Assembly (NCBI GenBank): GCA_000687975.1
Contig: JIAB01000001.1
Location: 2,394,001-2,458,000, forward strand
Direction of reading: 5' to 3'
Source of the DNA: Lachnospiraceae bacterium AC2031
GTDB lineage: Bacteria; Bacillota; Clostridia; Lachnospirales; Lachnospiraceae
Length of the DNA stretch: 64,000 nucleotides
Shown: one piece after another, positions 5,956 to 49,449 of the stretch
Layout of the letters: each line of letters starts with the position of its first letter
Numbering within the stretch: the first letter of the stretch is position 1
Made by a program: the position numbers and the translations under genes
The notes under the pieces: model-generated
The model's database searches: none
The model's input: only the letters and a program-made list of their open reading frames with translations
Told to the model about the DNA's origin: nothing

Positions 5956-6723
5956 ATGAAAAGAGTATTACTTGTAGAGGACGACTTCGCCCTCGCCATG
6001 GGAACTACATATACATTAAAGGCAGAAGGCTACGAAGTACTTCATGCTAAGAATCTGGCAGAGGCCAGAGAAATGGTGCAAGAGGGACAGACCTCGGTGC
6101 AAGGGGGTCCGTCCCCACTGCACGTTATTTTGCTGGATGTTATGCTGCCGGATGGGGATGGATTTTCTTTTCTTGAGGAGTTGAATGAGAAGGGGGTAGA
6201 TATTCCGGTGATCTTCTGTACGGCGGTTGGAGATGAGTCCAACATCGTAAGAGGACTTGATCTTGGCGCTGATGACTATGTGACAAAGCCTTACCGTGTG
6301 AAGGAACTGCTTTCCCGAATAGCAGCGGTTATCAGAAGACAGGAAAGAGTAATGAAGGCACAGGGCGTAGCACAGGGCGATATATCAGAAAGTATTGGCG
6401 ACGTACTTCAGGCAGAGGACAGTACAGTTAGCTTTGGTCAGCATAGCTTTAATATTGATAGCTACAGACTATATAAAAACGATGAGCCTGTGGATTGTAC
6501 TCCTGCAGAGCTTAGGCTTCTCCGAGAATTTGTTCGTAATAAGGGCATAGTTATAACAAGAAATCAGATGCTTCAGCGACTATATGATACAGAGAATACT
6601 TTCTTCGATGACAATACATTGTCGGTTTATATAAAACGACTCAGAGATAAGTTAGGTGACGATGCACAGTATATAAAAACTGTGAAGGGAATCGGTTACC
6701 GCTTCGATACAGAATTGGAATAA
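5956..6723 (+). CDS. OmpR-family response regulator with an R1 palindrome embedded in the receiver domain
   Basis: A 255-residue DNA-binding response regulator. The receiver domain has the acidic pair EDD (8-10), phospho-acceptor Asp61 in LLDVMLPDGDGF, Thr in FCTAV and Lys in YVTKPYR; the C-terminal winged helix carries LRLLREFVRNKGIVITR and VYIKRLRDKLGDD. Asp61 lies about 9-10 residues later than usual because bases 6075-6123, an R1 repeat, are read in frame as VQEGQTSVQGGPSPLH between helix 2 and strand 3, a surface loop on the family fold. All phosphorylation residues are intact, so it is probably functional. It lies 4 bases before the histidine kinase gene. Confidence 0.93.
   Translation: MKRVLLVEDDFALAMGTTYTLKAEGYEVLHAKNLAEAREMVQEGQTSVQGGPSPLHVILLDVMLPDGDGFSFLEELNEKGVDIPVIFCTAVGDESNIVRGLDLGADDYVTKPYRVKELLSRIAAVIRRQERVMKAQGVAQGDISESIGDVLQAEDSTVSFGQHSFNIDSYRLYKNDEPVDCTPAELRLLREFVRNKGIVITRNQMLQRLYDTENTFFDDNTLSVYIKRLRDKLGDDAQYIKTVKGIGYRFDTELE
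6075..6123 (+). repeat. R1 palindromic element (copy a, long form, in frame in response regulator)
   Basis: Long-form R1: a half arm (GGTGCAAGAGGGACAGACCT) followed by the hairpin unit beginning GGTGCAAGGGGG and ending CCCCACTGCAC. It is read through in the GTG-CAA frame, giving VQEGQTSVQGGPSPLH. No stop codon is introduced. Confidence 0.9.
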
Positions 6724-6727
6724 ATAT

Positions 6728-7870
6728 ATGAAAAGTAACTATGAACAAAACAGCTTTATAAAGCTTTATTGGTTTGTGGCCGGGATCATCCTGGTCACAA
6801 GTTTTGTGCTGCTATACTTTGTTTCTTTTAGTATAACAAGCAGTCAGAGACCATTTCTTGTGCTCCTGGGTGTATCTGAGACCGTCCTGGTGGTAATCCT
6901 TTTCTTACTGTCTAAGGTATATATTGATAGAGCTTATAAATCCCTGAACAGTGCTTCAGATGTTATGGCATCTATGATAGAAGACAGCAAGAAAAATGAA
7001 GGCCGTGTTCTTTCAGATGAGGAAATGGAAAAATCTGAATCAATGGAGATGATAAGGGCGTATAAAGCTTCTGAACTCCAGGAAGGAACTGTGGGTATCT
7101 TCTATGATAACTTCGAGAAACTGATCCATATGTTTCAGGAGAGCCGCCGCAAGGAGAAGAGTGAGAAAGAGTATCTTCAGGATGTAATGTCTGATATATC
7201 ACATCAGTTGAAAACCCCTCTTGCTTCCATGGATGTGTTCCTTGATCTTATCGTAAATGACAAGATAAGCAGCGAGGATGAGCGTAAGATGATCCTGGGT
7301 GAGGCCTCCAATCAGGTGAGCCGCATGGAGTGGATGGTGCTGTCTATGCTGAAGCTGGCTCGAATCGAAGCTGGGGCGATAGCATTTGACATTGGAGATG
7401 TAAATCTGGCCGCTGTTCTTTCGGAGGTAGCAGGAGGTGTAAAGTACCTCATTGATACCCGTGGTCAGAAGCTGACTATAGACTGTCCAGAGGATATAAC
7501 TGTGAAGGCTGACGGCCCTTGGCTGACAGAGGCTATCATAAATATCGTGAAGAATGCGTCTGACTATTCAGCCCAGCGGGTGGATGTTGATTCCTCTGAG
7601 AAGGCTGGAAAAGAAGTGGGACAGATCAGCATCAAGGTGGAGCAAAATGCAATCTTCACTCGTATTTATATAAGCGACAATGGCATGGGAATGAGTGAGG
7701 AAACCATGACGCATATCTTTGAACGTTTTTACCGTGAGTCCAGCGAGGTTAATCCTAACAGTGTAGGTATAGGACTTTCGCTGTCTAAGTCCATAGTTGA
7801 AGGAATGGGCGGTAAGATCACGGTGGAAAGTAAACTTGGTGAAGGAAGTACATTTAAGGTTCAGTTTTAG
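6728..7870 (+). CDS. Sensor histidine kinase, partner of the upstream response regulator
   Basis: A 380-residue inner-membrane kinase. Two transmembrane helices (about 12-34 and 41-63) are separated by a very short loop, so there is almost no outside sensor domain. The HisKA box DISHQLKTPLAS contains the phosphorylated His159. The ATP-binding domain has the N box (NIVKNASDYS), G1 (DNGMGM), F box (ERFYR) and G2 (GIGLSLSKSI). This short-loop architecture is typical of Firmicute kinases linked to cell-envelope stress and peptide sensing, where signals arrive through membrane partners. It starts 4 bases after the response regulator, with weak ribosome binding, suggesting coupled translation. Confidence 0.95.
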   Translation: MKSNYEQNSFIKLYWFVAGIILVTSFVLLYFVSFSITSSQRPFLVLLGVSETVLVVILFLLSKVYIDRAYKSLNSASDVMASMIEDSKKNEGRVLSDEEMEKSESMEMIRAYKASELQEGTVGIFYDNFEKLIHMFQESRRKEKSEKEYLQDVMSDISHQLKTPLASMDVFLDLIVNDKISSEDERKMILGEASNQVSRMEWMVLSMLKLARIEAGAIAFDIGDVNLAAVLSEVAGGVKYLIDTRGQKLTIDCPEDITVKADGPWLTEAIINIVKNASDYSAQRVDVDSSEKAGKEVGQISIKVEQNAIFTRIYISDNGMGMSEETMTHIFERFYRESSEVNPNSVGIGLSLSKSIVEGMGGKITVESKLGEGSTFKVQF

Positions 7871-7878
7871 GAGGATAT

Positions 7879-8514: not shown

Positions 8515-8530
8515 TAAAAAGAATAAAAGA

Positions 8531-8583: not shown

Positions 8584-8604
8584 CATGTTAAACAATGATA
8601 CATT

Positions 8605-8651: not shown

Positions 8652-8675
8652 TTTATAAAAGGATTGAGGCATAAT

Positions 8676-10933: not shown

Positions 10934-12922
10934 ATGACTTATTACGTTGATTGTAATGTGGCAGCAACTGGTAATGGAACCAAGGAGTCTCCATTTAAGA
11001 CAATCCAGGAAGCTGCAGACGTAGCTGTAGCTGGGGATGAGGTGCTTGTTTCTGAGGGTATCTACCGAGAGTATGTTGATCCAAAGAATGCAGGTACAGA
11101 AGATGCACGTATCGTTTATAGATCAGTGAAGCCACTGGGGGCAGTTATTACTGGTGCTGAACCAATGAATGACTGGGAAGAGGTTGAGCCACATGTGTGG
11201 AAGACAAAGGTTCAAAATTCTTTCTTCGGTGATTATAATCCATTTAATACCCTTGTATCGGGTGACTGGTTTGTAGCATTTATCACCGCTCATACAGGTG
11301 ATGTATTCTTAAATGACAAGTCTATGTATGAGGTGCTTAGCCTGGATGAGGTGCGTGATCCTAAGGTGAACTACCGTTCATGGGATAAGGACTTTACTGT
11401 ATATGTTTGGTATACAGAGCAGGAAGGGGATTCTACTGTAATATATGCTAACTTCCAGGACACAGATCCTCGCAATGCTAAAGTTGAGATTTCTGTTCGT
11501 GAGAATTGTTTCTATCCTTCGAAAGAGGGAGTGGGGTATATAACATTTGATGGCTTTACTGTATGTAAAGCTGCAACTCAGTGGGCCCCTCCAACAGCAT
11601 ATCAGGAGGGAATGATCGGTCCTCACTGGTCAAAGGGATGGATCATCGAGAACTGTGATGTGTTTGAGTCCAAGTGCAGCGGCATCTCTCTGGGTAAATA
11701 TCTTCAGCCGGATAATGATAATAAGTGGCTCAAAACGAAGTACAAGGACGGTACTCAGACTGAGAGAGACTGTATCTGTCAGGCACAGACTGATGGCTGG
11801 AGCAAGGAGACCATCGGATCACATATCGTTAGAAACTGTAACATTCACGACTGTGGTCAGACTGGTATCGTAGGTCATCTGGGTGGTGTGTTCTCTATTA
11901 TTGAGAATAACCACATTCATCATATAAATAATAAGCAGAATCTTGCAGGAGCTGAGATCGGTGGAATCAAGATGCATGCTGCTATAGATGTAATAATTAG
12001 GAATAACCATTTCCATCATTGTACCAGAGGTCTCTGGCTTGACTGGCAGGCACAGGGTACAAGAGTTACGCAGAATGTCTTCCATGACAATAACATTCCT
12101 TATGATTATCTGATCTGTAAGGAGAATATGCAGAATCTTGGACTTGGGGAGGATATCTTTATTGAGGTAAGCCATGGACCAACGCTGGTTGATAACAATC
12201 TGCTTCTTTCAGAACGTTCACTGAAGCTACCAACACAGGGCGTTGCTGTGGTACATAACCTTCTTGCTGGCTCCCTTACAACTGTTGGTCGTGGCGTTGA
12301 CAATGGTGCAAAGACTATGAAGTCAACACGTTATACACCTTACCATGTGCCTCACAGAACTGAGATTGTGGGATTCATGTCTATCCTTCATGGTGATATG
12401 AGATTCTATAACAATATCTTTGTTCAGAAGCCACTTCGTGCAGCCTATGATGGAATGCTGGGAGACTTCTCAGATAATGAGTGGGAGGATGGCAACTTCA
12501 CAGTTGGTACAGTTCCTTACTCAGGCTATATGACAGAGGAACAGTGGAAGGCTGAGTTTGAGGGCTACTGTGGTATGGGTAGCGAGCCAAGCGACAGATA
12601 CTACATTCCACTTCCAGTATGGACAGGCGGAAATGTTTTCTTCAACGGTGCTAAGCCTTGCGACATCGAGCAGGACTATGTTGAGGATACTGAGCATGAG
12701 ATTTTCGTTGATATGAAGGAAGAGGATGGAGAGTGGAAGCTTTCAACTAATGTGCGTGACTTCCTTCCAGAAGGACTTTCAATGATAAGCACTGATACTT
12801 TAGGTATGGCATTCGAGCCAGAACAGCGCTTCGAAAATCCAGACGGCAGCGATATAACATTTGACACCGATATAGACGGAGCTAAGCGTGGTGGCAGCAT
12901 AAAGCCAGGCCCTTGGGCATAA
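10934..12922 (+). CDS. GH120-type beta-xylosidase (right-handed beta-helix)
   Basis: A 662-residue cytoplasmic protein without signal peptide. It resembles, from memory of the sequence, the GH120 beta-xylosidase XylC of Thermoanaerobacterium: shared blocks are NSFFGDYNPF, ATQWAPPTA, GPHWSKGWIIE, CGQTGIVGHLGGVFS, HAAIDVIIRNN, GLWLDWQAQGTR and IEVSHGP. The described nucleophile Asp and acid/base Glu correspond to Asp370 (LWLD) and Glu411 (FIE). These are 41 residues apart rather than 23, owing to an 18-residue insert (around IPYDYLICKENMQNLGL). It would split xylo-oligosaccharides taken into the cell. RBS AAGAGGGG precedes the ATG. An R1 repeat starts one base after the stop. Confidence 0.88.
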   Translation: MTYYVDCNVAATGNGTKESPFKTIQEAADVAVAGDEVLVSEGIYREYVDPKNAGTEDARIVYRSVKPLGAVITGAEPMNDWEEVEPHVWKTKVQNSFFGDYNPFNTLVSGDWFVAFITAHTGDVFLNDKSMYEVLSLDEVRDPKVNYRSWDKDFTVYVWYTEQEGDSTVIYANFQDTDPRNAKVEISVRENCFYPSKEGVGYITFDGFTVCKAATQWAPPTAYQEGMIGPHWSKGWIIENCDVFESKCSGISLGKYLQPDNDNKWLKTKYKDGTQTERDCICQAQTDGWSKETIGSHIVRNCNIHDCGQTGIVGHLGGVFSIIENNHIHHINNKQNLAGAEIGGIKMHAAIDVIIRNNHFHHCTRGLWLDWQAQGTRVTQNVFHDNNIPYDYLICKENMQNLGLGEDIFIEVSHGPTLVDNNLLLSERSLKLPTQGVAVVHNLLAGSLTTVGRGVDNGAKTMKSTRYTPYHVPHRTEIVGFMSILHGDMRFYNNIFVQKPLRAAYDGMLGDFSDNEWEDGNFTVGTVPYSGYMTEEQWKAEFEGYCGMGSEPSDRYYIPLPVWTGGNVFFNGAKPCDIEQDYVEDTEHEIFVDMKEEDGEWKLSTNVRDFLPEGLSMISTDTLGMAFEPEQRFENPDGSDITFDTDIDGAKRGGSIKPGPWA

Positions 12923-12923
12923 T

Positions 12924-12973
12924 GGTGCAGCGGGGTCCGTCCCCACTGCACCGAGGTCTGTCCCCAATTGCAC
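12924..12973 (-). repeat. R1 palindromic element (copy b, long form)
   Basis: The hairpin unit (GGTGCAGCGGGG to CCCCACTGCACC) is followed by the half arm GAGGTCTGTCCCCAATTGCAC, i.e. the long form in reverse orientation. It starts one base after the beta-xylosidase stop codon and precedes the terminator at 12981. Confidence 0.9.
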
Positions 12974-13118: not shown

Positions 13119-13784
13119 ATGAATATTGTTGAGATGAAAAATGTAACGAAGATTTATGGTGAGAAGGAGAACCAGGTGCTGGCTCTTCATAACATTAATC
13201 TTGAGATAGAGAAGGGAAGTGTGGTTTCTGTTGTTGGTGCATCAGGAAGCGGCAAGTCTACACTTCTAAATGTTATGGGCGGAGTTGATAGTCCATCGGA
13301 TGGAAGCGTCTATGTGGATGGCAAGGAGATAACTAAGTATAAAGATGATGAGCTTAGTATCTTCCGTCGCAGGAAGGTGGGATTTATCTTTCAGGCATAT
13401 CACCTTATCCCAGTTCTTACAGTTGAAGAGAATATAAAGATGCCTGTCCTCCTGGATCATAGAAAACCGGATAAGGAATATATCGATCATATTATCGAGC
13501 TTCTGGGACTTGCAGATAGAAGAAAGCATCTTCCTAATCAGCTTTCAGGTGGTCAGCAGCAAAGAACTGCAATAGCCAGAGCTCTTGCTAATAATCCAAC
13601 TCTTGTGCTGGCAGATGAGCCTACAGGAGCTCTCGATTCAAAGAATGGTGAAGAGGTTATGGATCTCCTTATGAAGTCTGTTCACAACATTGGACAGACA
13701 CTGGTAATTATAACTCACAACATGGATCTTGCTCGTGAGGCAGACCGAATTATTAAGATTAAGGATGGAGAGATTGTACAGTAA
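13119..13784 (+). CDS. ABC transporter ATP-binding protein (MacB/LolD type)
   Basis: A 221-residue ATPase with all ABC motifs: Walker A GASGSGKST (about 39-47), Q-loop FQAYHLIP, signature LSGGQQQR, Walker B LVLADEPTGALDS and the His switch ITHN. It belongs to the class that energises FtsX-like permeases for lipoprotein, peptide or macrolide handling rather than import, as there is no substrate-binding protein nearby. AAAGGAGAATGTT precedes the ATG. The stop overlaps the first base of the next start codon, so it is translationally coupled to the large permease. Confidence 0.96.
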   Translation: MNIVEMKNVTKIYGEKENQVLALHNINLEIEKGSVVSVVGASGSGKSTLLNVMGGVDSPSDGSVYVDGKEITKYKDDELSIFRRRKVGFIFQAYHLIPVLTVEENIKMPVLLDHRKPDKEYIDHIIELLGLADRRKHLPNQLSGGQQQRTAIARALANNPTLVLADEPTGALDSKNGEEVMDLLMKSVHNIGQTLVIITHNMDLAREADRIIKIKDGEIVQ

Positions 13785-16348: not shown

Positions 16349-16377
16349 GGTGCAGTGGGGACGGACCCCACTGCACC
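16349..16377 (+). repeat. R1 palindromic element (copy c, short form)
   Basis: The minimal unit: GGTGCAGTGGGG, loop ACGGA, CCCCACTGCACC. It begins at the base after the TAA of the large permease and ends 26 bases before the next gene, inside the ABC operon. Confidence 0.92.
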
Positions 16378-20750: not shown

Positions 20751-21698
20751 ATGAAACTAGGTGAATGGAATCTACTTAGAATAGATAGAATTAAAGATGT
20801 GGGAGCTTATCTTACTGACGGTAAGGGACTGGGTGAAGATATGGATGTTCTTCTTCCAACCAGACAGATCCCGGAAGGCCTTGAGATTGGCGATAATGTG
20901 GAGGTTTTCTTATATAGGGATTCTGAAGATAGACTTATAGCTACAACCCACACTCCACTGATCACCCTGGGCGAGATAAAAAAGCTTAAAGTAAAGTCAG
21001 TGGCCAGTATTGGTGCATTTCTTGACTGGGGACTTAGCAGAGATCTGTTCCTGCCATTTAAGGAGCAGACAGTGAAGGTTCAGCAGGAGAAATCCTATCT
21101 GGTAAAGCTCTATGTTGATAAGACAGGAAGACTTGCAGCTTCCATGAGAATAGCAGATGCGCTTTCACTTGATACAGATGGCACATTCAAGAAAGGTGAC
21201 CACGTTAAGGGTGTTGTCTACAATGTTAAGAAGGATTTCGGTGTTTTTGTAGCCCTGGAGGATTCACCACTTGGTGCAGAGGGGACAGACCTTGGTGCAG
21301 TGGGGACGGACCCCATTGCACGATATAAGTATTCGGGCTTGATCCATAGCAGTGAAGTCTTTGAAAACCTCTATGTGGGTGACGAGGTTACCTGCAGAGT
21401 GGTAAAGGCTCGCGAGGATGGCAAGCTGGATCTTGCTATGAGAGATGAGATTCCACAGCAGATGGAAAAGGACGCTGAGATGGTATACGACATCATAAAG
21501 AGTTATGGTGGCAGATTACCATTTAACGATAAAGCAGATGCAGAGCTTATTAAGAAAGAGTTCGGTATCAGCAAGAATGCATTTAAACGTGCTGTAGGCA
21601 GGCTGTTAAAGCAGGGCCTCATCACAATTAATCCAGATAGTATAACAATAAAAAGAGTCAAAACGGCTCAGAGCCAAATCGACTCATTTGATACATAG
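20751..21698 (+). CDS. cvfB: CvfB/YitL-like S1 RNA-binding protein with embedded R1 and R2 repeats
   Basis: A 315-residue protein with three S1-type barrels (about 5-65, 68-135, 148-225) and a C-terminal winged helix (about 235-300: [25 protein letters not shown]). CvfB proteins bind RNA and affect virulence or growth genes in Firmicutes. In the third barrel, bases 21273-21321 (R1) are read in frame as [16 protein letters not shown] between VALEDSP and KYSGLIH, where relatives have a short turn. The last 13 residues come mainly from an R2 element (21654-21687). Thus both ends of normal sequence variation were supplied by repeats. RidA follows at once. Confidence 0.88.
21273..21321 (+). repeat. 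R1 palindromic element (copy d, long form, in frame in cvfB)
   Basis: Half arm GGTGCAGAGGGGACAGACCT, then the hairpin unit GGTGCAGTGGGG to CCCCATTGCAC. Translated [16 protein letters not shown]. It uses the same frame as the copy in tsaD. Confidence 0.93.
21654..21687 (+). repeat. R2 palindromic element (copy b, encodes the CvfB C-terminus)
   Basis: AGAGTC and GACTCAT form the outer stem and GGCT-CAG-AGCC the inner stem. It is read in frame as [11 protein letters not shown] and is followed by FDT and TAG, then by the AAGGAGG of ridA. Confidence 0.8.
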
Positions 21699-33391: not shown

Positions 33392-33485
33392 TAACAGAAC
33401 ATCATGAATTACGACAGATTCTAAAATGTGTCGTAAAGTCTGTCACGTGTCTGGTTTTGTCTAATTACATAAAGAATGAATAGAG

Positions 33486-33522
33486 GTATCCTTTCTTTTG
33501 AAACAAGAAAGGGTACTTTTTT
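33486..33522 (+). terminator. Terminator between the LemA-like and MMPL genes
   Basis: GGTATCCTTTCTT pairs with AAGAAAGGGTACT around TTGAAAC and is followed by T residues. It lies 30 bases before the MMPL start, so it may separate the transcripts or reduce readthrough. Confidence 0.7.
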
Positions 33523-33553
33523 ATTTGCCCAAAAGACTAAAGGAGGGATGAAG

Positions 33554-35662: not shown

Positions 35663-35694
35663 TGGGAAAGAATAAAGAGAAAGGAAGATGAATT

Positions 35695-38220: not shown

Positions 38221-38319
38221 TAGACAGGTTTATCAAAAACACACTAGCTGAGAGACAGGCTGAAAGGCAGGCTGCAGTAAAAACAACAAAGAAACCAACA
38301 ACAGGTATGAGAAGATAAA
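38214..38319 (+). pseudogene. Out-of-frame continuation of the lipoprotein gene
   Basis: In a shifted frame, coding continues past the TAG at 38218-38220 as VVDRFIKNTLAERQ, then AERQAAVKTTKKPTTGMRR and TAA at 38317-38319. The R1 element at 38323 begins 3 bases after this second stop, the position R1 takes after true stop codons elsewhere here. A single-base change near GCAAAGTAGTAGAC would explain it. It may be a frameshifted tail or chance. Confidence 0.4.
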
Positions 38320-38322
38320 AAG

Positions 38323-38371
38323 TGCAGATGGGGACAGACCTTGGTGCAGTGGGGTCTGTCCCCGCTGCACT
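38323..38371 (+). repeat. R1 palindromic element (copy f, long form), possible terminator
   Basis: Half arm GTGCAGATGGGGACAGACCTT, then the hairpin unit GGTGCAGTGGGG to CCCCGCTGCAC. Flanked by AAAAA and TTTTT, so it has the form of a bidirectional intrinsic terminator after the lipoprotein gene. Confidence 0.9.
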
Positions 38372-38428
38372 TTTTGTGCTATATTTAATGAGTAATGCAA
38401 CGTGGTTAGTTAGTGGAGGGTGTAATGT

Positions 38429-39799: not shown

Positions 39800-39802
39800 T
39801 AG

Positions 39803-39832
39803 ATATGCAGCGGCATCCCCGCTGCATATTTT
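39803..39832 (+). terminator. Hairpin after the DLNGDD protein gene
   Basis: ATATGCAGCGG (39803-39813) pairs with CCGCTGCATAT (39819-39829), then TTTT. The core recalls R1 arms but is too short to assign. Confidence 0.65.
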
Positions 39833-39933
39833 GGTGTTTCTAATATTGGGAAAATGTAGTAAAATATAACGGTATTTGCTGGTTCATGGAATACTAGATT
39901 TTTATGTGCTTACGGAGGCAAACTATAAGAAAA

Positions 39934-41166
39934 ATGAATAACAAAAGATTTAAGACGGTTGGTAAAGTTTCTTCGAAGATTTTAGCTGTTATAATGACAT
40001 TTGCAATTGTTTTATCTCTATCGGTTGAACCGAGCATAGATTCGAATGCTGTCGGCTGGAAGGGCAATACTTCTGGCTGGTGGTACGAGGAGTCGGACGG
40101 CTCATATCCATCAGAAAGCTGGAAGCAGATTGATGGAAGCTGGTATTACTTTGATTCGGCTGGTTACATGGTGACAGGCTGGAGAAAGATCAGCGGAGTA
40201 TATTATTACTTTGAATCAAGCGGTGCGATGGCCGCAGACAAGTGGATTGGCGATTATTATGTGGATGCATCTGGCGCCTGGACAGAAACAGCTGGCAGTA
40301 CTGGCTGGGTAATGAGAGGCGGCAAATGGTATTTCTACAATGAAGATGGTTCTGCAGCAACTGGCTGGAAGAAGTCAGGCCGCGACTGGTACTACCTGGA
40401 TGCGGATGGTAGTGCTCACACAGGCTGGCTTTCAGATGGCGGTGACTGGTACTATATGGACTCAGACGGAAAGATGAGCATTGACTGGATCTGGGATGGT
40501 TCAGCTTGGTATCTTATGAGTTCTGAAGGTAAATGGATCAGCGACAATAAGATCATCTACCTGACCTTTGATGATGGCCCTGGACCATACACTCAGAGAC
40601 TGCTGAATATCCTCGACAAAAATGGGGTCAAGGCTACATTTTTCGTTACTGCTGCATATCCAGAGTATTCCTATCTGATCGGTACTGAATATAATGCTGG
40701 ACATTCTATCGGCGTTCATACATATACACATAATTATCAGAAGATTTATTCCAGCGAGGCTGCTTACTGGAGTGATTTCGAGAGGATGGAAAGCGTTATC
40801 GAGGCTCAGACTGGTTCAAGAACAAATATGTTCCGATTCCCAGGAGGAAGCTCTAATCTGGTTAGTTCTTTCAATTCTGGAGTTATGACACGCCTTACTA
40901 CTCAGGCAACTCAGAAGGGCTACACATATTATGATTGGAATGTTCTTAGTGGAGATGCGGGAGACACTACAGATAGCAGTAAGATTTTAGAGAACCTGAA
41001 GAATGGAGTTAAGACTCATAATGAGAGCGTGATCCTTTGTCATGATATTAAGGATTACACTATAGATGCTGTGGAGGATTTCATTCCTTGGGCACTGGCT
41101 AACGGATATACATTCCAGCCACTCAGTGAGAACAGCATCACTGCACATCATACGGTACAAAATTAA
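39934..41166 (+). CDS. Polysaccharide deacetylase (CE4) with cell-wall-binding repeats
   Basis: A 410-residue secreted enzyme: signal peptide (about 12-35), five to six choline-binding-type repeats (WYYFDSAGYMVTGW, WYFYNEDGSAATGW, WYYLDADGSAHTGW) and a C-terminal NodB domain. Catalytic motifs are complete: TFDDGPG (base and metal Asp), HTYTH (metal His), RFPGG, and CHDI. It probably removes N-acetyl groups from peptidoglycan or another glycan while docked to the wall. ATG 39934 is chosen, though GGAGG lies 15 bases upstream; an alternative ATG at 39904 precedes that site. An R1 element follows the stop. Confidence 0.9.
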   Translation: MNNKRFKTVGKVSSKILAVIMTFAIVLSLSVEPSIDSNAVGWKGNTSGWWYEESDGSYPSESWKQIDGSWYYFDSAGYMVTGWRKISGVYYYFESSGAMAADKWIGDYYVDASGAWTETAGSTGWVMRGGKWYFYNEDGSAATGWKKSGRDWYYLDADGSAHTGWLSDGGDWYYMDSDGKMSIDWIWDGSAWYLMSSEGKWISDNKIIYLTFDDGPGPYTQRLLNILDKNGVKATFFVTAAYPEYSYLIGTEYNAGHSIGVHTYTHNYQKIYSSEAAYWSDFERMESVIEAQTGSRTNMFRFPGGSSNLVSSFNSGVMTRLTTQATQKGYTYYDWNVLSGDAGDTTDSSKILENLKNGVKTHNESVILCHDIKDYTIDAVEDFIPWALANGYTFQPLSENSITAHHTVQN

Positions 41167-41167
41167 T

Positions 41168-41210
41168 GTGCAGTTTGGTGCAGTGGGGACGGACCCCGCT
41201 GCACCAAACT
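41168..41210 (+). repeat. R1 palindromic element (copy g)
   Basis: GTGCAG at 41168 begins one base after the deacetylase stop; the hairpin unit is GGTGCAGTGGGG to CCCCGCTGCACC (41177-41205), and the stem extends outward with AGTTT/AAACT (to 41210). Confidence 0.9.
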
Positions 41211-41241
41211 ACATTGAGTATTATATAGGGGGTTACAAGAA

Positions 41242-41742
41242 ATGACCAAGAAAATTGATTACAAGAGATCGGATTACATTAACTGGGATCAGTACTTTAT
41301 GGGGATTGCACTGCTCTCAGCGGAAAGAAGTAAGGATCCGAGTACACAGGTTGGTGCCTGCATCGTAGATGGCGATAACCGTATCTTATCTATGGGTTAC
41401 AATGGCATGCCACGCGGCTGTGACGACGACGATATGCCTTGGGGCAGAGACGGAGCAGCGCTTGACAGCAAGTATGCCTTCGTATGTCATGCGGAGTTAA
41501 ATGCCATTTTAAATTATCACGGTACCGGCACCCTCAAAGGTGCAAGAGTGTACGTTACTCTGTTCCCTTGTAATGAATGTGCAAAGGCCATAATTCAGAG
41601 TGGAATTGCTGAGATAATCTATATGTCTGATAAGTATGCAGACAGCGAGAGTACAATCGCATCAAAGAAGATGTTCGATATGACTGGAATCAAGTACCGC
41701 AAGTACGAGCCAGCAGGCCGCGACATTATCCTCAGCATATAA
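41242..41742 (+). CDS. dCMP deaminase (ComEB-like)
   Basis: A 166-residue zinc-dependent deaminase that turns dCMP into dUMP for thymidylate synthesis. The catalytic motifs are HAE (about 80-82, CHAELNAI) and PCNEC (about 109-113), giving one His and two Cys zinc ligands with a proton-shuttling Glu. GACDDDDMPWGRDG is the substrate-side insert usual in this group. RBS GGGGGTT. The gene ends directly at an R2 repeat that separates it from tsaE. Confidence 0.95.
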   Translation: MTKKIDYKRSDYINWDQYFMGIALLSAERSKDPSTQVGACIVDGDNRILSMGYNGMPRGCDDDDMPWGRDGAALDSKYAFVCHAELNAILNYHGTGTLKGARVYVTLFPCNECAKAIIQSGIAEIIYMSDKYADSESTIASKKMFDMTGIKYRKYEPAGRDIILSI

Positions 41743-41779
41743 AATGAGTCGATTCGCTCTCACGCCCTTTTGACTCATT
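41743..41779 (-). repeat. R2 palindromic element (copy c)
   Basis: Reverse orientation, the same sequence as copy a. It starts at the base after the dCMP deaminase stop codon and ends next to the GGAG of tsaE. Confidence 0.88.
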
Positions 41780-41792
41780 GGAGATGAATAAA

Positions 41793-42218
41793 ATGACAGA
41801 GAAATTTGAGAGTTTTAGTAGAGAAGATACATTTGAATATGCAAAGAAACTTGGAGAGCAGGCAAAGCCAGGTGATGTGTACTGCCTGAGTGGAGACCTT
41901 GGCGTTGGAAAGACAGTTTTTGCTCAGGGATTTGGTGCAGGTCTCGGGATTACAGAACCTATGTCCAGTCCAACCTTTACCATACTCCAGGAATATACAG
42001 AAGGCCGACTTCCCTTGTATCACTACGATGTATACCGCGTTGGTGATGTGGATGAAATGGAAGAGACCGGATTCTACGAATATGTAGGCGGCGATGGCGT
42101 TGCCCTGATAGAATGGGCTGAGCTGATCGAGGAGATCATTCCAAAGACAGCGAAGCATATCCTCATCGAAAAGGATGTGGAGAAGGGCTTTGACTACCGC
42201 ACAATTTCTGTAGAATAA
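41793..42218 (+). CDS. tsaE: tRNA t6A biosynthesis ATPase TsaE
   Basis: A 141-residue P-loop protein of the t6A pathway, which with TsaB and TsaD adds threonylcarbamoyl to A37 of ANN-decoding tRNAs. Walker A is GDLGVGKT (about 34-41), followed by the TSPTF-like block MSSPTFTILQ and the HYDVYRV and LIEWAEL motifs. Several starts are possible; ATG 41793 has GGAG 9 bases upstream. It forms an operon with rimI (17 bases later) and tsaB. Confidence 0.95.
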   Translation: MTEKFESFSREDTFEYAKKLGEQAKPGDVYCLSGDLGVGKTVFAQGFGAGLGITEPMSSPTFTILQEYTEGRLPLYHYDVYRVGDVDEMEETGFYEYVGGDGVALIEWAELIEEIIPKTAKHILIEKDVEKGFDYRTISVE

Positions 42219-42219
42219 G

Positions 42220-42231
42220 TCAAAAGGCAGG
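42220..42231 (+). repeat. Possible R2 remnant
   Basis: AGTCAAAAGGCA right after the tsaE stop matches the left part of R2 but the right arm is missing. It could be a decayed copy or chance. Confidence 0.25.
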
Positions 42232-42235
42232 ATAT

Positions 42236-42652
42236 ATGTCGATATTTAGTGATATAGCAAAACTGGAGAGTGATAACTTCTCAGACGCTTGGAGTGAGAA
42301 AAGCCTGGAAGATACATTTGAGTATGACTACAACCATCTTCTGATGGAGAAGCGTGATGGCAAGGTTGTGGGCTACGTGATCTACTCGGATGTTCAGGGA
42401 GATGCAGAGCTTCTGAGAATAGCAGTAGATAAGAGTTACAGACGTCGCGGCATTGCGTCAATACTGATGCAGAACATGCTGGATGAACTGGTTGAGTCAG
42501 GTGCTGAAAGGGTGAGCCTTGAGGTGCGAGCTCACAACATATCTGCAGTGACACTCTATAAAAAGTTTGGTTTTGTTGATATATTTATAAGAGAAAACTA
42601 CTACACGGAGCCAGAAGATGATGCGCTCATCTTCCAACTTCAGTTTACATAA
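42236..42652 (+). CDS. rimI: GNAT acetyltransferase RimI
   Basis: A 138-residue GNAT protein that acetylates the N-terminal alanine of ribosomal protein S18. The acetyl-CoA loop is YRRRGIASILMQNML (Q/RxxGxG/A type), followed by VSLEVRAHNISAVTLYKKFGF, the family signature, and a C-terminal YYTEPEDDALI. RimI lies between tsaE and tsaB in many Firmicutes, as here. Start ATG at 42236 with AGGCAGGA before it. Confidence 0.95.
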   Translation: MSIFSDIAKLESDNFSDAWSEKSLEDTFEYDYNHLLMEKRDGKVVGYVIYSDVQGDAELLRIAVDKSYRRRGIASILMQNMLDELVESGAERVSLEVRAHNISAVTLYKKFGFVDIFIRENYYTEPEDDALIFQLQFT

Positions 42653-42653
42653 T

Positions 42654-42690
42654 ATTGAGTCGATTCGGATCAAAGCCAAAGTGACTCATT
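42654..42690 (-). repeat. R2 palindromic element (copy d)
   Basis: ATTGAGTC and GACTCATT arms with a diverged interior (CGGATCAAAGCC). It begins one base after the rimI stop codon and ends against the GGGAGG of tsaB. Confidence 0.82.
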
Positions 42691-42700
42691 GGGAGGAAGA

Positions 42701-43483
42701 ATGAAGATACTAGGAATTGATAGTTCGGGTATGGTGGCATCGGTTGCCATAGTTTCGGACGATGTAGTAATAGCTGAATATACAATGAATCACAAGAAGA
42801 CTCATTCTGAGACTCTTCTTCCTATGATTGATGAGATAGTAAAGACTTCTGAGTTTAAGCTTGAAGAGTTAGATGCTATCGCTATCGCATCTGGTCCGGG
42901 TTCATTTACAGGTCTTAGAATTGGTGCTGCAACAGCGAAGGGACTTGCTCTTGCAATAGATAAGCCAATCGTTCCTGTAAAAACCTGCGAGGGACTTGCA
43001 TTTAACATGTGGGGAGCTGAAGGACTTGTGTGCCCTATCATTGATGCAAGAAGAAATCAGGTCTATACAGGCCTCTATCAGGTACAGGGAAATGTTAATG
43101 TGATCATGGATCAGGAACCAATGGATATCCATGAATTAATAGAGAAAATAAATACGCTGGCACATAATGTTAGTAGTGATTCAATACTAAGTGGAGAAGC
43201 GGGGGTTTCTCGATTAGGTGAACCTGCTGCAGTAACATTTCTCGGTGACGGTGTTCCTATCTATGAGGAAACTATATGGCTTGAGACAAAGGTGCCTTGT
43301 AAGATGGCTCCTGCAAACATGAACCGTCAACGTGCATCTTCTATAGCAACATATGGAGCAATTCTTTATAAAGAAGGCAAGTATGTAAATGCTGATGATT
43401 TCGCTCCTGAGTATCTTCGTAAATCTCAGGCGGAACGTGTGAAGGAAGAAAAAGAGGGGGCTATAAATGAAAAAGCTAAATAA
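42701..43483 (+). CDS. tsaB: tRNA t6A biosynthesis protein TsaB
   Basis: A 260-residue member of the ASKHA fold and partner of TsaD. Visible family blocks are LGIDSSGMVASVAIV at the N-terminus, ETLLPMIDEI, and ASGPGSFTGLRIGAATAKGLA (about 67-87), then the VCPIIDARRNQVYTGLY block. It is somewhat longer than E. coli TsaB. The start after GGGAGGAAGA is chosen. Its end overlaps the next lipoprotein gene by 17 bases. Confidence 0.95.
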   Translation: MKILGIDSSGMVASVAIVSDDVVIAEYTMNHKKTHSETLLPMIDEIVKTSEFKLEELDAIAIASGPGSFTGLRIGAATAKGLALAIDKPIVPVKTCEGLAFNMWGAEGLVCPIIDARRNQVYTGLYQVQGNVNVIMDQEPMDIHELIEKINTLAHNVSSDSILSGEAGVSRLGEPAAVTFLGDGVPIYEETIWLETKVPCKMAPANMNRQRASSIATYGAILYKEGKYVNADDFAPEYLRKSQAERVKEEKEGAINEKAK

Positions 43484-44720
43484 AGCTATCTCAATGTCTA
43501 TAATTGCCGCAATGCTGTGTGTATCTCTCACGGCATGCGGCGATTCTTTATCTGTGTCGGATAACAGCGACAAGGCACGTAAGACTACGGAAGAAACCAC
43601 CGAGGCTACCACTGAGGCAACTGAAGCGACTACAGAACAGACAACAGAGGAGAAGACAGAAGCAATCACAGAGAAAAAAGATGAAACAGAAGAGACTTCT
43701 ACTGACACTAATAAAGATGTAGAGGCGTACAATCCTATGCTGGACGAAGTATATAGTCTGGTTGTGGATGGGTATGACGAAGACAGAGAATATACATATT
43801 CTTCTTCCGGAATTATGGAAGAGATTTCTTATGGTCAGCCAGAGAGTCTGGGCTATATACTGATGGATCTAAATGGAGATGACAGCCCTGAACTTCTTGT
43901 GGGCAAGAACGGCTCCAGTGATGGTTCTGAAACAGATGACGCCAGTTTTATCTATGAGGGCTACACCTTAAAGGATGGAAAAGCTACTCAGTTTCTTGGT
44001 GGCTGGGCTCGTAGCAGCTATTACTGGCTGGGTGATGATCACTTTTACTATGTAGGTTCTGGTGGAGCTATGTCGACTTCATTTGGCGAATGCCATCTCA
44101 GTGAAGAAGGGGAGATTCTTATATGGGATGATTTCTACTTCACTGATGAAAAAGAAGCGGGAGAGATGGGAATCTATCATAATAACTCAGGTGTGTGGGA
44201 TTCAGCAGAATCGGAAGAACTGACTATGTCTAGTGATGAATTCTGGGCAATATCGGAAGCGTATGAATTCAAGATGCTTGAATGGACTCCGATAACAGAA
44301 TATACTCCTTCAGGCGATTATGGTAATGACAGTTCATCGAAGAATACGAACTGTGAGGTAACGGCTATCTGGGCTGATGGAGTAGTTGATAATTCTACAA
44401 ATTATTATGGCTATGAAACTCCGAATTCTGATGAGTACACAACACATGTATTATTCTCTGTTAATAAGGAAGTTAAGAATTTCCGTATAGTTGAGCTCTT
44501 TGTAAAGAATATTGATGATAATGGCAATATTGAATATCTATATGAAGAGCGATACAAGCTGGAAACTCTTACTCCAGATATGCCTGTTTGTGCGGGCCTT
44601 AATTTTCCTGGGGATACTCCTAATAACGGTTTCATGTATACAGATTCAGAGGGGAATGACCACTTGTTTGTTCTTGAAGTAAGTGGAAAAGATGGATCGC
44701 TAATCGTTTGGGAGTACTAA
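43467..44720 (+). CDS. Lipoprotein with Thr/Glu linker and DLNGDDSPEL motif
   Basis: A 417-residue lipoprotein: signal peptide ending in lipobox SLTAC (Cys at about 25), a Thr/Glu/Ala-rich linker (about 40-85) that would span the wall, and an outside domain with DLNGDDSPELL like that in the protein at 38429. The function is unknown. It overlaps the tsaB end by 17 bases, so it is transcribed with the t6A genes even though its product works outside the membrane. RBS GAGGGGGC. Confidence 0.78.
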   Translation: MKKLNKAISMSIIAAMLCVSLTACGDSLSVSDNSDKARKTTEETTEATTEATEATTEQTTEEKTEAITEKKDETEETSTDTNKDVEAYNPMLDEVYSLVVDGYDEDREYTYSSSGIMEEISYGQPESLGYILMDLNGDDSPELLVGKNGSSDGSETDDASFIYEGYTLKDGKATQFLGGWARSSYYWLGDDHFYYVGSGGAMSTSFGECHLSEEGEILIWDDFYFTDEKEAGEMGIYHNNSGVWDSAESEELTMSSDEFWAISEAYEFKMLEWTPITEYTPSGDYGNDSSSKNTNCEVTAIWADGVVDNSTNYYGYETPNSDEYTTHVLFSVNKEVKNFRIVELFVKNIDDNGNIEYLYEERYKLETLTPDMPVCAGLNFPGDTPNNGFMYTDSEGNDHLFVLEVSGKDGSLIVWEY

Positions 44721-44742
44721 ACATTAGTGAGGTTGAATTGTA

Positions 44743-46383
44743 ATGACTAATAACTTAACAGAGAAGGACAAATTTCTAAACACTTATTCAAATTATAGCG
44801 TATGGCGTGTCGTTTCATTTCTCGTATGCCTGTTTAGTCTTATCTATTTTCCAAAGAAAGACAATGAATTCTTCTTTTCATATTATGATCATATAATGAA
44901 TAGAGAAATCTTCCATTCTGAGGACGGCTTCTGGAAGCAGATGGCTGTCTTTATGATCATGTCTTATGGTATTGCTATGGCTGTTCTGCTAGTTAATACC
45001 ATTCTTGTTGCGAAGGAAAGACGTGAAGGTGCATTTGCAGATATAGCTATATACGGTTATCTTACTCTGCTAAATCCAGCATATGTCTTAATTTCGATGA
45101 TCGGAAGCAGATCCAGCGGGTTCTACGAAGATGCAAAATATACTATCTTAATAATTCCTGCTGTCTATTTCCTTGCAATGCTGATTTTTCATATAAGGCT
45201 TTATTTAAAGAACAGAGAGGGATTCTATGATAGGAAGGACGATCCTCTTAAAGATTCCTGCTTTGCAGTAACTGCAGTTATCCTGGTTCTTGTACTCGTA
45301 ATATTACCAGGGAAAAATGCTATCTCTGCTATAAAAATGTCTAAGGACTACAGTATTAACTATGGTCTCTACAAGGCAAGACCTGGAGAAATTGAGGGCA
45401 TTGATGAGGATACTATTGGAAATAAGAATAATGGTGGATTCATCTGGAATGACAATCTATATATTGTAACTGGCCATGTAATCGAGACTGTTGATGAAAG
45501 AGGAGAAGTGGTTGAGAAATATGATATGGGGATGGATGCTTACCATTGGGTTTTCTATTCGGATGAATCAAATGCATGCCTTTTTATTGGAAAAGTTGTT
45601 GATCAAGGTACTAAGTTTAAAACCTTCAATGTTTATAGGTTTGATCTGTTAAATGAAGAAACAGAGCTTATTTTTTCAGAAGACTACTTTAGTGACTATA
45701 TTGGATTAGATTTGTTTGCTATAAAAGATGACTATCTATACTATAAGCTACACAATGAACTTACACCAAAAAAAGAACCACTTGCTTATAATATATATCG
45801 TTTTAGTTTTCCAAAGAGTTCCAGTGATAAGGCGTCTGAGAAAGAGATATATGTATCAGATGTTGGGGTGACAGGAGCGCTGGAATCTGCATTCTTATAT
45901 AACTACGATATTATAGAGAATAAAAGAATGCTTACAGCAAGTTATAAAGTGCCTTATAAAGGCGCTCTATATTATACTAGAAGTATGAGCGGTGAACTTG
46001 GGGATCCTGTAGATCATTATAATGTACTGTATCGTAAGGAAAATGGTGCAGATAAAAATCAAGGTGATAAAATCGGTTTAGAATTATTTGTGGAAAATGC
46101 AGATAAACTAACAGATAATGCCACATATATGAATATATACAAAGATAAAATCTTCTTCGTGGACAATAAGGAATACTATGAAGAAACAGACGATGGCGAA
46201 AAGAATTATGTGTCAAGATCTCGCCTTTGCAGTATGAACCTTGATGGCTCTGATATGCAGGTCCTTGACGAGTGTGAAGATTCAGAACATGGCACATATT
46301 TCTATAACGTATGGGTATCAGATGACTATATAGTTTATTACACTGCTACGGGCCATGGAGAATATAAGGTGATCAAGAGATGA
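44743..46383 (+). CDS. Membrane protein with outside repeat domain, unknown function
   Basis: A 546-residue protein with five transmembrane helices in the first 190 residues and an outside domain of about 350 residues. That domain repeats short strands with LY..I and Y..N patterns (DNLYIVTG, DDYLYYKL, DKIFFVDN, DDYIVYYTA), which suggests a beta-propeller like the DUF5050 group. I do not recognise a closer family. The stop overlaps the next start as ATGA, so the pair is coupled. Confidence 0.7.
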   Translation: MTNNLTEKDKFLNTYSNYSVWRVVSFLVCLFSLIYFPKKDNEFFFSYYDHIMNREIFHSEDGFWKQMAVFMIMSYGIAMAVLLVNTILVAKERREGAFADIAIYGYLTLLNPAYVLISMIGSRSSGFYEDAKYTILIIPAVYFLAMLIFHIRLYLKNREGFYDRKDDPLKDSCFAVTAVILVLVLVILPGKNAISAIKMSKDYSINYGLYKARPGEIEGIDEDTIGNKNNGGFIWNDNLYIVTGHVIETVDERGEVVEKYDMGMDAYHWVFYSDESNACLFIGKVVDQGTKFKTFNVYRFDLLNEETELIFSEDYFSDYIGLDLFAIKDDYLYYKLHNELTPKKEPLAYNIYRFSFPKSSSDKASEKEIYVSDVGVTGALESAFLYNYDIIENKRMLTASYKVPYKGALYYTRSMSGELGDPVDHYNVLYRKENGADKNQGDKIGLELFVENADKLTDNATYMNIYKDKIFFVDNKEYYEETDDGEKNYVSRSRLCSMNLDGSDMQVLDECEDSEHGTYFYNVWVSDDYIVYYTATGHGEYKVIKR

Positions 46384-47327
46384 GTTTAAAAAAAATAAAG
46401 CGTATTTTTGGATTGCTTCTTGCTGCGGTGTTTTTGATATCACTGACTGGGTGTCAGCCGTCACATTTTACTACACAAGAAAATCATGATATGACTGATG
46501 CTGTAACAGGTGATGTGAATGACTGGTTTCAGAAGAATTATCCTACAGCTATGGATATATCATATAACCTTCAAACTGAATATGTAGATACTGATGGAGA
46601 TGTTGATATCTACGGATATGTTCTTACGGATCTTATGGAAGGACAGTTTGTCGTTGATGGAACCAGATATGAATATGCATATATAGATTCCAGTAAGACT
46701 ATGTACCTTTCGACCTATGCCAATGATGCTCAGAAATATGCAAAGAAATTATATTATACTGGTCTAGGTTTTTCCGAAGATGATATATTAGCTGATGGTG
46801 ATGTAAATATATATATTAATCCTGACATAAAGGGGTACTATGATCTTGACAGTAAGGGCAAGCTTAATGAGATGGATATATCTTTAGCTAACTACTGGCA
46901 TACCATAGAAAATGTCCTTCCATCAGATTTAAAAGAAACTGAAGTAGAAAAGTATGTTTACACTGGTCTTAAGAATGGTAATCTTGAATGTGGTTCTTAC
47001 AGTATAACAGTAAATAAAAGCATGAATATTAAGGATATAAATCTCAAATTTTTAAGAGAGTATCAGCATTTTAATAGTATTGAGATAGAGACTCCTGATG
47101 TAAAATATGAAATGTTCACAGATTACCAGTCGATCAACAACCAGGATAAGAAGGTTCTATGTATTAAGACTGTAGGAGATGCAGAAAATGCAACTTACAG
47201 CGATGCCAGTCCCGGAGAAGCAAGTCCAAGTAGTGCTGGTAAAACCGAAGATGATAAAGAACATATCTACGTGTATGATATGGAGACACTTGGATTACTT
47301 CGCGATTATGATCTTGAAGAAGAATAA
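46380..47327 (+). CDS. Lipoprotein of unknown function
   Basis: A 315-residue lipoprotein: signal peptide with lipobox SLTGC (Cys at about 25), then an acidic, beta-rich domain, and near the end a Ser/Pro/Ala spacer (SPGEASPSSAGK). No family is recognised. It overlaps the membrane-protein gene by 4 bases, so the two are probably functional partners. A terminator follows at once. Confidence 0.72.
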   Translation: MSLKKIKRIFGLLLAAVFLISLTGCQPSHFTTQENHDMTDAVTGDVNDWFQKNYPTAMDISYNLQTEYVDTDGDVDIYGYVLTDLMEGQFVVDGTRYEYAYIDSSKTMYLSTYANDAQKYAKKLYYTGLGFSEDDILADGDVNIYINPDIKGYYDLDSKGKLNEMDISLANYWHTIENVLPSDLKETEVEKYVYTGLKNGNLECGSYSITVNKSMNIKDINLKFLREYQHFNSIEIETPDVKYEMFTDYQSINNQDKKVLCIKTVGDAENATYSDASPGEASPSSAGKTEDDKEHIYVYDMETLGLLRDYDLEEE

Positions 47328-47357
47328 AAGGTGACACATTGTGTCGCCTTTTTTTGT
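47328..47357 (+). terminator. Intrinsic terminator after the lipoprotein gene
   Basis: AAGGTGACAC pairs with GTGTCGCCTT around ATT, followed by seven T. Confidence 0.88.
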
Positions 47358-47385
47358 TTTTACTCTACTAATATAGCCAGTTCAC

Positions 47386-47414
47386 TTGTCAGAGAGTGGC
47401 GAATAAGGTAAAAT
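47386..47414 (+). promoter_or_regulatory. Promoter of rnz-tsaD
   Basis: TTGTCA (47386-47391), 17 bases, TAAAAT (47409-47414), 48 bases before the RNase Z start. Confidence 0.6.
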
Positions 47415-47461
47415 AAAACCCGATGATTTTGTAAAATAAATGATAGAATGAGAGATTATAT

Positions 47462-48382
47462 ATGATCGATGTGTGTTTGCTTGGTACAGGTGGCATGATG
47501 CCTCTTCCGTACCGAGCGCTTACTTCTTTAATGATGAGATATAACGGAAGCAGTGTCCTGGTGGATTGTGGTGAGGCTACTCAGATTTCTGTACGTCGCA
47601 GAGGCTGGAGTTTCAATCCTATAGACGTGATACTGATTACACATTTCCATGCGGATCATATAAGTGGCCTTCCTGGAATGCTGCTTGCCATGGGAAATGC
47701 AGAAAGAACGGAGCCTGTAACCATAGTTGGTCCTGAGGGGATTGAACATGTGGTGAAGTCGCTTCTTGTAATTGCTCCAAGACTTCCATTTGAGATCAAG
47801 TTTATTGAACTTGATAAATCAAAGGATGAAGAGGTGATGGAACTTTCAGGTCTTAGAATAAAAGCCTTCAAGGTTCATCACAATATGCTTTGCTATGGTT
47901 ATAGTTTTGAACTTGATAGAGCAGGAAAGTTTGATGCTGAGGCAGCTAAGAGTCTCGGACTTCCGGTTATGTATTGGAGTCATCTGCAAAATGGTGAAAT
48001 CATCGAGTATGAAGGAAAGTCCTATACCAGTGATATGGTGATGGGTCCTGCACGTAAGGGACTTAAGATTACTTATACAACTGATACTCGCCCAACTGAT
48101 AAGATCACAGAGGAAGCTACCGGTGCTGATCTTTTTATCTGCGAAGGAATGTATGGCGATGATGATGCTGAATCAATCGCTAAGGCCAGAGATAAGAAGC
48201 ATATGACTATGCAGGAGGCAGCTGAGATTGCTAAGAAAGCACAGCCTAAAGAGATGTGGCTGACTCATTATTCACCATCTATGATAAAACCTGAACAGTA
48301 TGCAGAAGCTATAACGGCAATCTTTCCACGAACGGTCATCAGTAAAGATCGCCGCATGATGACATTAAATTTTGAAGAATAA
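47462..48382 (+). CDS. rnz: Ribonuclease Z
   Basis: A 306-residue metallo-beta-lactamase-fold nuclease that trims the 3' trailer of tRNA precursors. The zinc motif HFHADH (about 62-67) is complete; further ligands are in FKVHHNM, YTTDTRP and LTHYSPS. The exosite arm typical of bacterial RNase Z is visible around [15 protein letters not shown]. It precedes tsaD by 41 bases, so two tRNA-maturation genes share a transcript. Confidence 0.93.
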
Positions 48383-48423
48383 GATGTGGCGCAAAGTTTA
48401 CAGCGCCTAAAAAGGATATAGAA

Positions 48424-49449
48424 ATGAGTACAAATATACTTGGAATTGAGACCTCCTGTGACGAGACAGCAGCAGCTGTTGTTCGTGACGGCAGAGAGGT
48501 CGTGTCAAATGTAATCTACACCCAGATTCCTACGCACACACTATATGGTGGTGTTGTGCCGGAAATCGCATCCCGTGAGCATGTGCTTAAAATCAATCAG
48601 GTGATCAAGAAAGCCCTGGAAGATGCAGAACTAACCTGGGATGATATTGATGCTATAGCAGTAACCTATGGCCCTGGTCTTGTAGGTCCACTCCTGATCG
48701 GAGTAAGTACTGCCAAGGCACTCGCCTATGCTAAAAACATTCCACTTGTCGGCGTAAACCACATAGAAGGCCACATCTCCGCTAACTATCTTGGTGCAGC
48801 GGGGACGGACCCCATTGCACCAAAATATATGTGCTTAGTTGCATCAGGTGGTCATTCGCATATTGTCAGGGTCGATGACTATACGGAGTACACTATAATT
48901 GGTCGTACACACGATGATGCGGCAGGAGAAGCATTTGACAAGGTTGCTCGTGCTATCGGTCTTGGATACCCTGGTGGTCCTAAGGTTGATAAGCTGGCGA
49001 GAGAAGGAAATCCTAACGCTATAGAGTTCCCAAGAGCAAGTGTTGGAGATTCTCCTTATGACTTTTCATTTAGTGGTATCAAGTCGGCAGTATTGAACTA
49101 TCTAAATGGAGCCGAAATGAAAGGTATCGAAGTGAACAAAGCCGATGTGGCAGCGTCCTTCCAGATGGCTGTAATAGATGTGTTGGCTGATCACACTATA
49201 CAGGCGGCTCTCGATTACAATATGAAGACGGTTGCACTGGCGGGAGGAGTTGCGGCAAACTCTCTGCTTCGTGAAACAATGAAAGAAAGAGCTGAGGCGA
49301 AGGGGCTTAGGTTCCATTGCCCAGAGCTGATCTATTGTACAGATAATGGTGCCATGATCGCAGCGGCTGGTTACCATGAATATAAAGCTGGTAGAAGGGC
49401 AGACCTCTACCTAAATGCTATTCCGAATCTTAAGATCGGAGAAAGATAG
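48424..49449 (+). CDS. tsaD: tRNA t6A transferase TsaD with an R1 repeat in frame
   Basis: A 341-residue enzyme that transfers threonylcarbamoyl to tRNA A37. Family motifs are intact: [14 protein letters not shown] (about 6-19), [17 protein letters not shown], the metal motif HIEGH (about 111-115), SGGHSHIV, and [11 protein letters not shown]. Between [11 protein letters not shown] and [11 protein letters not shown], bases 48793-48821 (R1) are read as [10 protein letters not shown], replacing the short loop found in relatives with little net length change. Because tsaD is usually essential, this insertion must be tolerated. TsaB and TsaE are encoded 5 kb upstream. Confidence 0.96.
48793..48821 (+). 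repeat. R1 palindromic element (copy h, short form, in frame in tsaD)
   Basis: GGTGCAGCGGGG, loop ACGGA, CCCCATTGCACC. Translated [10 protein letters not shown], the same phase as in cvfB ([10 protein letters not shown]). Confidence 0.93.

Follow-up and report, generated by a model that had tools for sequence, protein, structure and literature searches.

R1, a dispersed palindrome family of Lachnospiraceae bacterium AC2031, probably served by a single RAYT/TIRYT-type transposase

The closest described relatives of the repeats treated here are the TIRtrons, in which a Y1 transposase (TIRYT) lies between repeats, some of them self-complementary, that are also dispersed in some genomes (PMC3733652, Di Nocera et al. 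2013). According to PMC6006769 the TIRYTs probably correspond to its subclass 2.1, and the same survey states that REP-like sequences were not found beside subclasses 2.1 and 2.3 by automatic or manual search. Classical repetitive extragenic palindromes (REPs) lie close to upstream stop codons and occasionally within open reading frames (ORFs) (PMC3733652), and the E. coli REP-associated tyrosine transposase (RAYT) needs a GT[AG]G tag (PMC8266576). Rickettsia palindromic elements (RPEs) carry a CGTC end tag (PMC3733652). Here we describe R1, a palindrome family first noticed in a 64,000-nt stretch (the window, G000:C1:2394001-2458000) of the Lachnospiraceae bacterium AC2031 genome (G000), a single contig of 3,191,482 bp. 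Our reading, to which we give a probability of roughly 85%, is that a single Y1/HUH transposase of the RAYT/TIRYT type serves the R1 copies, which are REP-like palindromes and themselves non-autonomous.

The genome holds three Y1_Tnp genes. The first is a 143-aa open frame with no R1 in the locus read, and palindromes of a different family, whose arms are TGAGTCA, flank the second (L032). The third (G000:C1:3031795-3032529, 245 aa) is chromosomal, lies outside the window and is present once in the genome; R1 long forms bound it about 0.1 kb upstream and 2 nt past its stop codon, and a third R1 copy follows about 0.6 kb downstream. The counterpart gene of a relative, G226, has a short R1 upstream and a long R1 downstream. 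The protein scores above the Pfam cut-off for Y1_Tnp and carries both the HUH and the Y---NP motifs. Its sole NCBIfam match at E <= 0.001 is the REP-associated tyrosine transposase family, with a score of 51 against a curated cut-off of 80, and the same family matches all 39 aligned homologues (39 of 43 usable). Searching the PDB with a profile of these homologues returned TnpArep 4er8 alone at E <= 0.01 (E = 4.6e-7), while phmmer with the single protein gave no relevant PDB match; the predicted fold (mean pLDDT, predicted local distance difference test, 88) has 4er8 as its best structural match and also matches the IS608 and ISDra2 transposases. In the profile alignment, phenylalanine replaces the tryptophan of the WQ pair of E. 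coli TnpAREP. The R1 transposase also has a C-terminal extension with helices predicted after residue 186, and helix-turn-helix (HTH) matches, all below cut-off, were obtained in 4 of the 5 C-termini examined. By this weak-HTH extension and the exchange of tryptophan for phenylalanine it resembles subclass 2.1 (RAYT group 1), to which it may belong. The preliminary description of the window had called R1 REP-like in form, and this likeness holds and extends to a RAYT-type transposase that is flanked by R1 and co-occurs with it.

Two observations concern the surroundings of this gene. G226 (L129) lacks a 154-aa ORF (L033:848-1312) that in G000 lies 5' of the upstream R1 copy; in G226 a short-form R1 stands directly 3' of the gene preceding the missing ORF. 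The transposase locus with its neighbours (G000:C1:3029792-3033526 against L129) is 90-92% identical between the two genomes and the window region 65-83%; recent transfer of the locus, or stronger constraint on it, may explain the higher identity.

In its short form R1 measures 29 nt and is a near-perfect palindrome, GGTGCAnnGGGG-5 nt-CCCCnnTGCACC; the long form, of about 49 nt, adds the 5' half arm GTGCAnnnGGGGACAGACCT. One long form of each loop type was folded: the example with TCCGT in the loop gave one long bulged hairpin and that with ACGGA gave the inner hairpin. The degenerate half-palindrome GGTGCAN{0,2}GGGGNCNGNCC has 127 matches in the genome, both strands, and its reversed control has 0; a covariance model built from 16 long-form copies gives at least 151 matches on both strands. 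Merging the pattern matches in the stretches around listed matches yielded at least 112 R1 sites (the extra half arm is present at 55) at no fewer than 97 genome places, a lower bound because degenerate copies are missed and only listed matches were counted. A few adjoining sites are pieces of a single copy (e.g. 1673146 and 1673176); in a look for inverted pairs (BIME/REPIN), 13 of the 97 places were seen to hold two or more sites, partly such pieces, and the orientation of the palindrome is ambiguous. The largest R1-free gap, 290 kb from G000:C1:3177074 to 275544 across the contig end (chance about 0.01), may lie near the terminus, judging from gene strands.

Occurrence of the transposase and of R1 was compared across 61 genomes of the genus and 200 of the family. 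A homologue at E <= 1e-20 is present in 21 of the 61 genus genomes, and only G000 and G226 have a protein more than 90% identical to the R1 transposase (96% in G226), the next being 58% identical. The same two genomes are the ones rich in R1, with at least 98 matches in G000 and at least 96 in G226 (99 candidates scored in each); eight others have 1-8 weak matches and 51 have none. Agreement on the same pair by chance would occur 1 time in 1830 if genomes are assumed to be independent. In a collection of named genomes, which may not include the genome of the window itself, the exact long-form pattern was found in seven stretches, all of Lachnospiraceae bacterium NE2001; as its matches share contig numbers and coordinates with those of G226, we take the two to be the same. 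In the family comparison, R1-model matches were found in 4 of 200 genomes, namely G000 (30 scored), G104 (22, the best at 52 bits), G148 (4) and G133 (1).

Related transposases were examined for palindromes of their own. Homologues are present in 36 of the 200 family genomes, and 53 loci, the best of 70 distinct listed matches from family and genus, were analysed; HUH is found in 52 of these and Y---NP in all 53. A word of at least 14 nt common to both flanks, direct or inverted, occurs at 33 of the 49 loci with usable flanks (which include three from G000 and G226 and a few near-duplicates) and at 0 of 40 control ORFs drawn from 12 other stretches. Some of these flanking repeats differ in their core, e.g. 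GGTACC at L051. Three other palindrome families, sought in ten genomes with both strands counted, proved nearly confined to genomes whose transposase they flank: the family of G116 has 73 matches there and none in the other nine, that of G239 has 24 matches, in G239 only, and a third has 28 in G207, 16 in G237 and 30 in G215, besides 2 weak matches in G239. The exception is G215, where the sole listed homologue is not the one flanked by the third family; its assembly is 65% complete. Related transposases thus mostly have their own palindromes with different arms.

Further dispersed palindromes exist in G000 itself. A second family of about 33 nt, TGAGTC...GACTCA, lies at window positions 13067, 41745, 42656 and 61535 and has 16 copies in the G000 stretches examined, the L032 locus excluded; its arms are those of the palindromes flanking L032, the second RAYT-like gene, and its core differs. 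A third, about GCCANTGGGGACGGTTCTCAGTGGC, is found at window position 18670; GGGGACGGTTC has 7 matches in the G000 stretches examined, 2 of them in the window, and a match at L083 resembles a hybrid with R1 arms.

Several observations weigh against the reading of R1 as repeats served by this transposase. Transposition of R1 is inferred, none having been observed. Since the R1-rich genomes form one pair, the co-occurrence may reflect a single event; moreover, G148 has R1-model matches and no transposase match at E <= 1e-20, and G104 and G133 have such matches with only distant transposase matches. R1 loci within 100 kb of the transposase are in excess (13 against 6.1 expected, p = 0.01), and without the three neighbours the number falls to 10 (p = 0.08), so that local hopping around the gene, for which this excess is weak evidence, was set aside. 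No flank word in common was found at 16 of the 49 homologue loci, some of which (L042, L139-L141) have a long palindrome on one side. GT[AG]G stands 0-2 nt 5' of the hairpin foot at 1 of 97 R1 sites of at least 27 nt. Covariation is absent between the two variable bases of the arms (complementary in 24 of 88 cases, against a shuffle mean of 31.4), and the letters of R1 therefore seem to be conserved for themselves rather than for pairing alone. Finally, the genomes compared are divergent (the window region of G226 is about 65-83% identical), too far for a clean empty site.

The window contains eight R1 copies, five of them long forms, as the preliminary description had claimed; one that it gave as starting at 41168 has its palindrome at 41177. 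The 12-mer GGTGCAGTGGGG has 18 window matches with up to 2 mismatches (mean 2.26, maximum 6 in 100 shuffles), all but the one at 18267 being within R1. The copies are as follows.

6076..6123, + strand: long form, in frame in an OmpR-type response regulator (ORF 5956-6723, Response_reg and Trans_reg_C), encoding about VQEGQTSVQGGPSPLH
12924..12973, - strand: long form, 1 nt 3' of the stop codon of ORF 10934-12922
16349..16377, strand unassigned: short form, abutting the stop codon of ORF 13784-16348
21273..21321, + strand: long form, in frame in a CvfB-like S1-domain protein (ORF 20751-21698), encoding 16 residues
35608..35657, - strand: long form, making the C-terminal residues KVQGGQTPLHQGPSPLAH of an MMPL-family protein (ORF 33476-35662)
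38322..38370, + strand: long form, intergenic, terminator-like with a T-tract
41168: fragment GTGCAGTTT, 5' of the R1 copy at 41177
41177..41205, strand unassigned: short form, 10 nt 3' of a stop codon
48793..48821, strand unassigned: short form, in frame in TsaD (ORF 48424-49449), encoding 10 residues

Across the genome, with gene positions taken from our own simple codon-usage gene caller, the 97 R1 places comprise 79 between tandem genes, 7 between convergent genes, 5 between divergent genes and 6 that fall inside an ORF. One of the six, 3040602, is no longer counted as intragenic, since in our judgement the likely start codon lies behind the element. A check of all 97 places showed other open frames across elements, mostly opposite called genes or 5' extensions, and none was counted as coding. 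Tandem copies are biased towards the upstream gene: the distance to its stop codon is at most 5 nt for 38 of the 79 and at most 25 nt for 54, and the distance to the start codon of the downstream gene is at most 5 nt for 4; the shorter gap is on the upstream side at 65 places and the longer at 14 (p = 5e-9). The half arm shows no bias in orientation relative to the upstream gene (21 to 18).

This position behind stop codons is what would be expected if R1 were kept mainly as a functional RNA, a terminator or a stabiliser of mRNA 3' ends, with the transposase incidental. In the terminator scoring of window positions 35001-50000, one R1 copy with its T-tract is terminator-like, as is part of another on the minus strand, and at 22 of 81 tandem sites at least six of the next 9 nt on the gene's side are T, as they are at 23 of 81 on the other side. 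Given that about a quarter of the sites have such a tract, some R1 copies may act as terminators. However, about three quarters of the tandem sites have no T-tract on the gene's side, and the arms show no compensatory covariation. Searching Rfam at gathering scores gave no match in the window, and R1 as a known RNA family was discarded. Abundance in only 2 of 61 congeners also speaks against an RNA function, which moreover leaves the flanked transposase unexplained. We therefore regard this explanation as unlikely.

Five R1 copies lie inside genes: those in TsaD (48793), the response regulator (6076), the CvfB-like protein (21273) and the MMPL C-terminus (35608), and one in PriA (genome position 683569), where it adds 17 residues immediately N-terminal to the GVTGSGKT motif. 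Reading in two phases inside proteins, as described earlier, was confirmed. Four of the five are among the eight window copies, against 1 at the 89 places elsewhere, so that the window overstates RPE-like behaviour. No stop codon interrupts any of the six frames in the long-form copy just 3' of the transposase gene, as the preliminary description had said of the consensus unit, and the same is true of 74 of 97 individual R1 sites of at least 27 nt, against 20% of shuffles of the same composition. Among seven palindromes taken from other transposase loci the number of open frames ranges from 1 to 5 of 6, so six-frame openness is not a property of this kind of repeat. The alternative that R1 is a selfish element of the RPE type, adapted to inserting in frame into proteins and free of stops to keep its hosts functional, is very improbable in spite of its five in-frame copies in conserved genes, its excess of open frames and the half of the window copies held by genes: coding insertion, a frequent state for RPEs, is found at 5 of 97 places although our gene caller makes 89% of the window coding, and the seven partly closed palindromes count against it as well. 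The earlier comparison with RPEs in function thus stands for real in-frame copies in conserved genes and fails for their frequency, and the preliminary interpretation as a whole is partly supported.

Comparison with relatives revealed that R1 sites differ between genomes. TsaD of G226 carries a long-form copy at the corresponding position in the protein, giving 18 more residues; at the CvfB-like site G226 has a long-form R1, while three other loci (L157, L158, L160) have none; and at the regulator site it has degenerate R1-like DNA, seen by alignment and missed by the pattern, with no R1 in six other relatives' loci. The TsaD and MMPL sites were compared with G226 only. Altogether, 3 of the 8 window sites have R1-like DNA in G226 and 3 (16349, 35608 and 41177) are without R1, the comparison at 12924 and 38322 giving no judgement. 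The place corresponding to 16349 carries no R1 in G226 or at six further loci of relatives, and the one corresponding to 12924 carries none in the relative G205. Conversely, the G226 copy at L155:11935 has no counterpart in the window. Given that sites differ between G000 and G226, copies come and go between species; on the alignments, some coding copies are older than the split of the two. The first description had named orthologues all having the same sequence without palindromes as grounds for giving up the family, and this did not occur, relatives being without the insert at several sites. R1 as ordinary coding sequence was rejected on account of those relatives and of the 92 of 97 places that our gene caller leaves non-coding. 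Two side observations come from the same comparisons. In G226, the place of the 41177 copy (L155, 3' of the same gene) is occupied by a different palindrome, AAAGTTGTCAC...GTGACAACTTT. The window segment 18715-20259 (about 1.5 kb) has a 99% identical counterpart in G220, and four other congeners match it at 79-81%; most nearby G220 matches are 64-73% identical, and recent transfer of the segment is likely.

Set beside the described systems, R1 fits the TIRtron/TIRYT kind better than the classical REPs. With the TIRtrons it shares a Y1 transposase between repeats, and 11 of 16 R1 long forms contain the core GGGGWSAS of some published terminal inverted repeats (PMC3733652); R1 differs in having about 100 copies, some inside genes, and in its genus, which includes NE2001. 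Like the classical GTAG REPs associated with the TnpAREP of E. coli and Stenotrophomonas, R1 is a high-copy, short, mostly extragenic palindrome private to the transposase it flanks, with copies close to upstream stop codons and few within ORFs. Lacking the tag, it does not belong to the classical GTAG REPs, and its transposase has a C-terminal extension and, in place of the tryptophan of the WQ pair of E. coli TnpAREP, phenylalanine. With RPEs, compared by their description, it shares some copies translated in frame in conserved proteins in two phases; unlike them, it is mostly extragenic and has a candidate dedicated transposase. IS200/IS605 ends are, like R1, hairpins served by a Y1/HUH enzyme, and R1 differs in that its copies lack the gene, which is present once in the genome. 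The kind of system (RAYT/TIRYT) is already known, and the R1 sequence family itself is unnamed in our searches: literature queries with sequence strings gave no related paper by title and abstract start, and queries joining REP or RAYT with Lachnospiraceae or Clostridia gave nothing on R1 by title and abstract start among the matches listed. This agrees, together with the Rfam result, with the preliminary statement that no named family has this sequence.

On the reading that R1 is served by the transposase it flanks, the enzyme would recognise the folded single strand of the palindrome, and its active-site tyrosine would cut next to it, so that R1 could be rejoined elsewhere and copies would spread. 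Selection would leave them where they are least harmful, often directly 3' of stop codons. The few in-frame copies may owe their survival to the chance absence of stop codons from R1 and to a tolerant loop in the host protein.

Our results tie a dispersed palindrome family to a single transposase. We also lean, with less assurance, towards a wider proposal: that the HTH-tailed subclass 2.1, probably the TIRYTs and the largest RAYT-like subclass, has REP-like repeats in this bacterial family. Most lineages examined have a palindrome of their own; the core is often of the GGGAC type and the arms differ between lineages, so that transposase and repeat would evolve together. R1 would be one such population, stop-free by accident and able to settle in frame even within TsaD and PriA. 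The copies in these two proteins offer an example of a mobile repeat lengthening conserved proteins. The 33 of 49 loci with matched flanking repeats make the specificity of enzyme and repeat testable by swapping pairs in vitro. R1-like repeats are candidate substrates for a RAYT-like class to which PMC6006769 assigned no repeat, and, if the subclass 2.1 assignment holds, that statement would need revision for this bacterial family.

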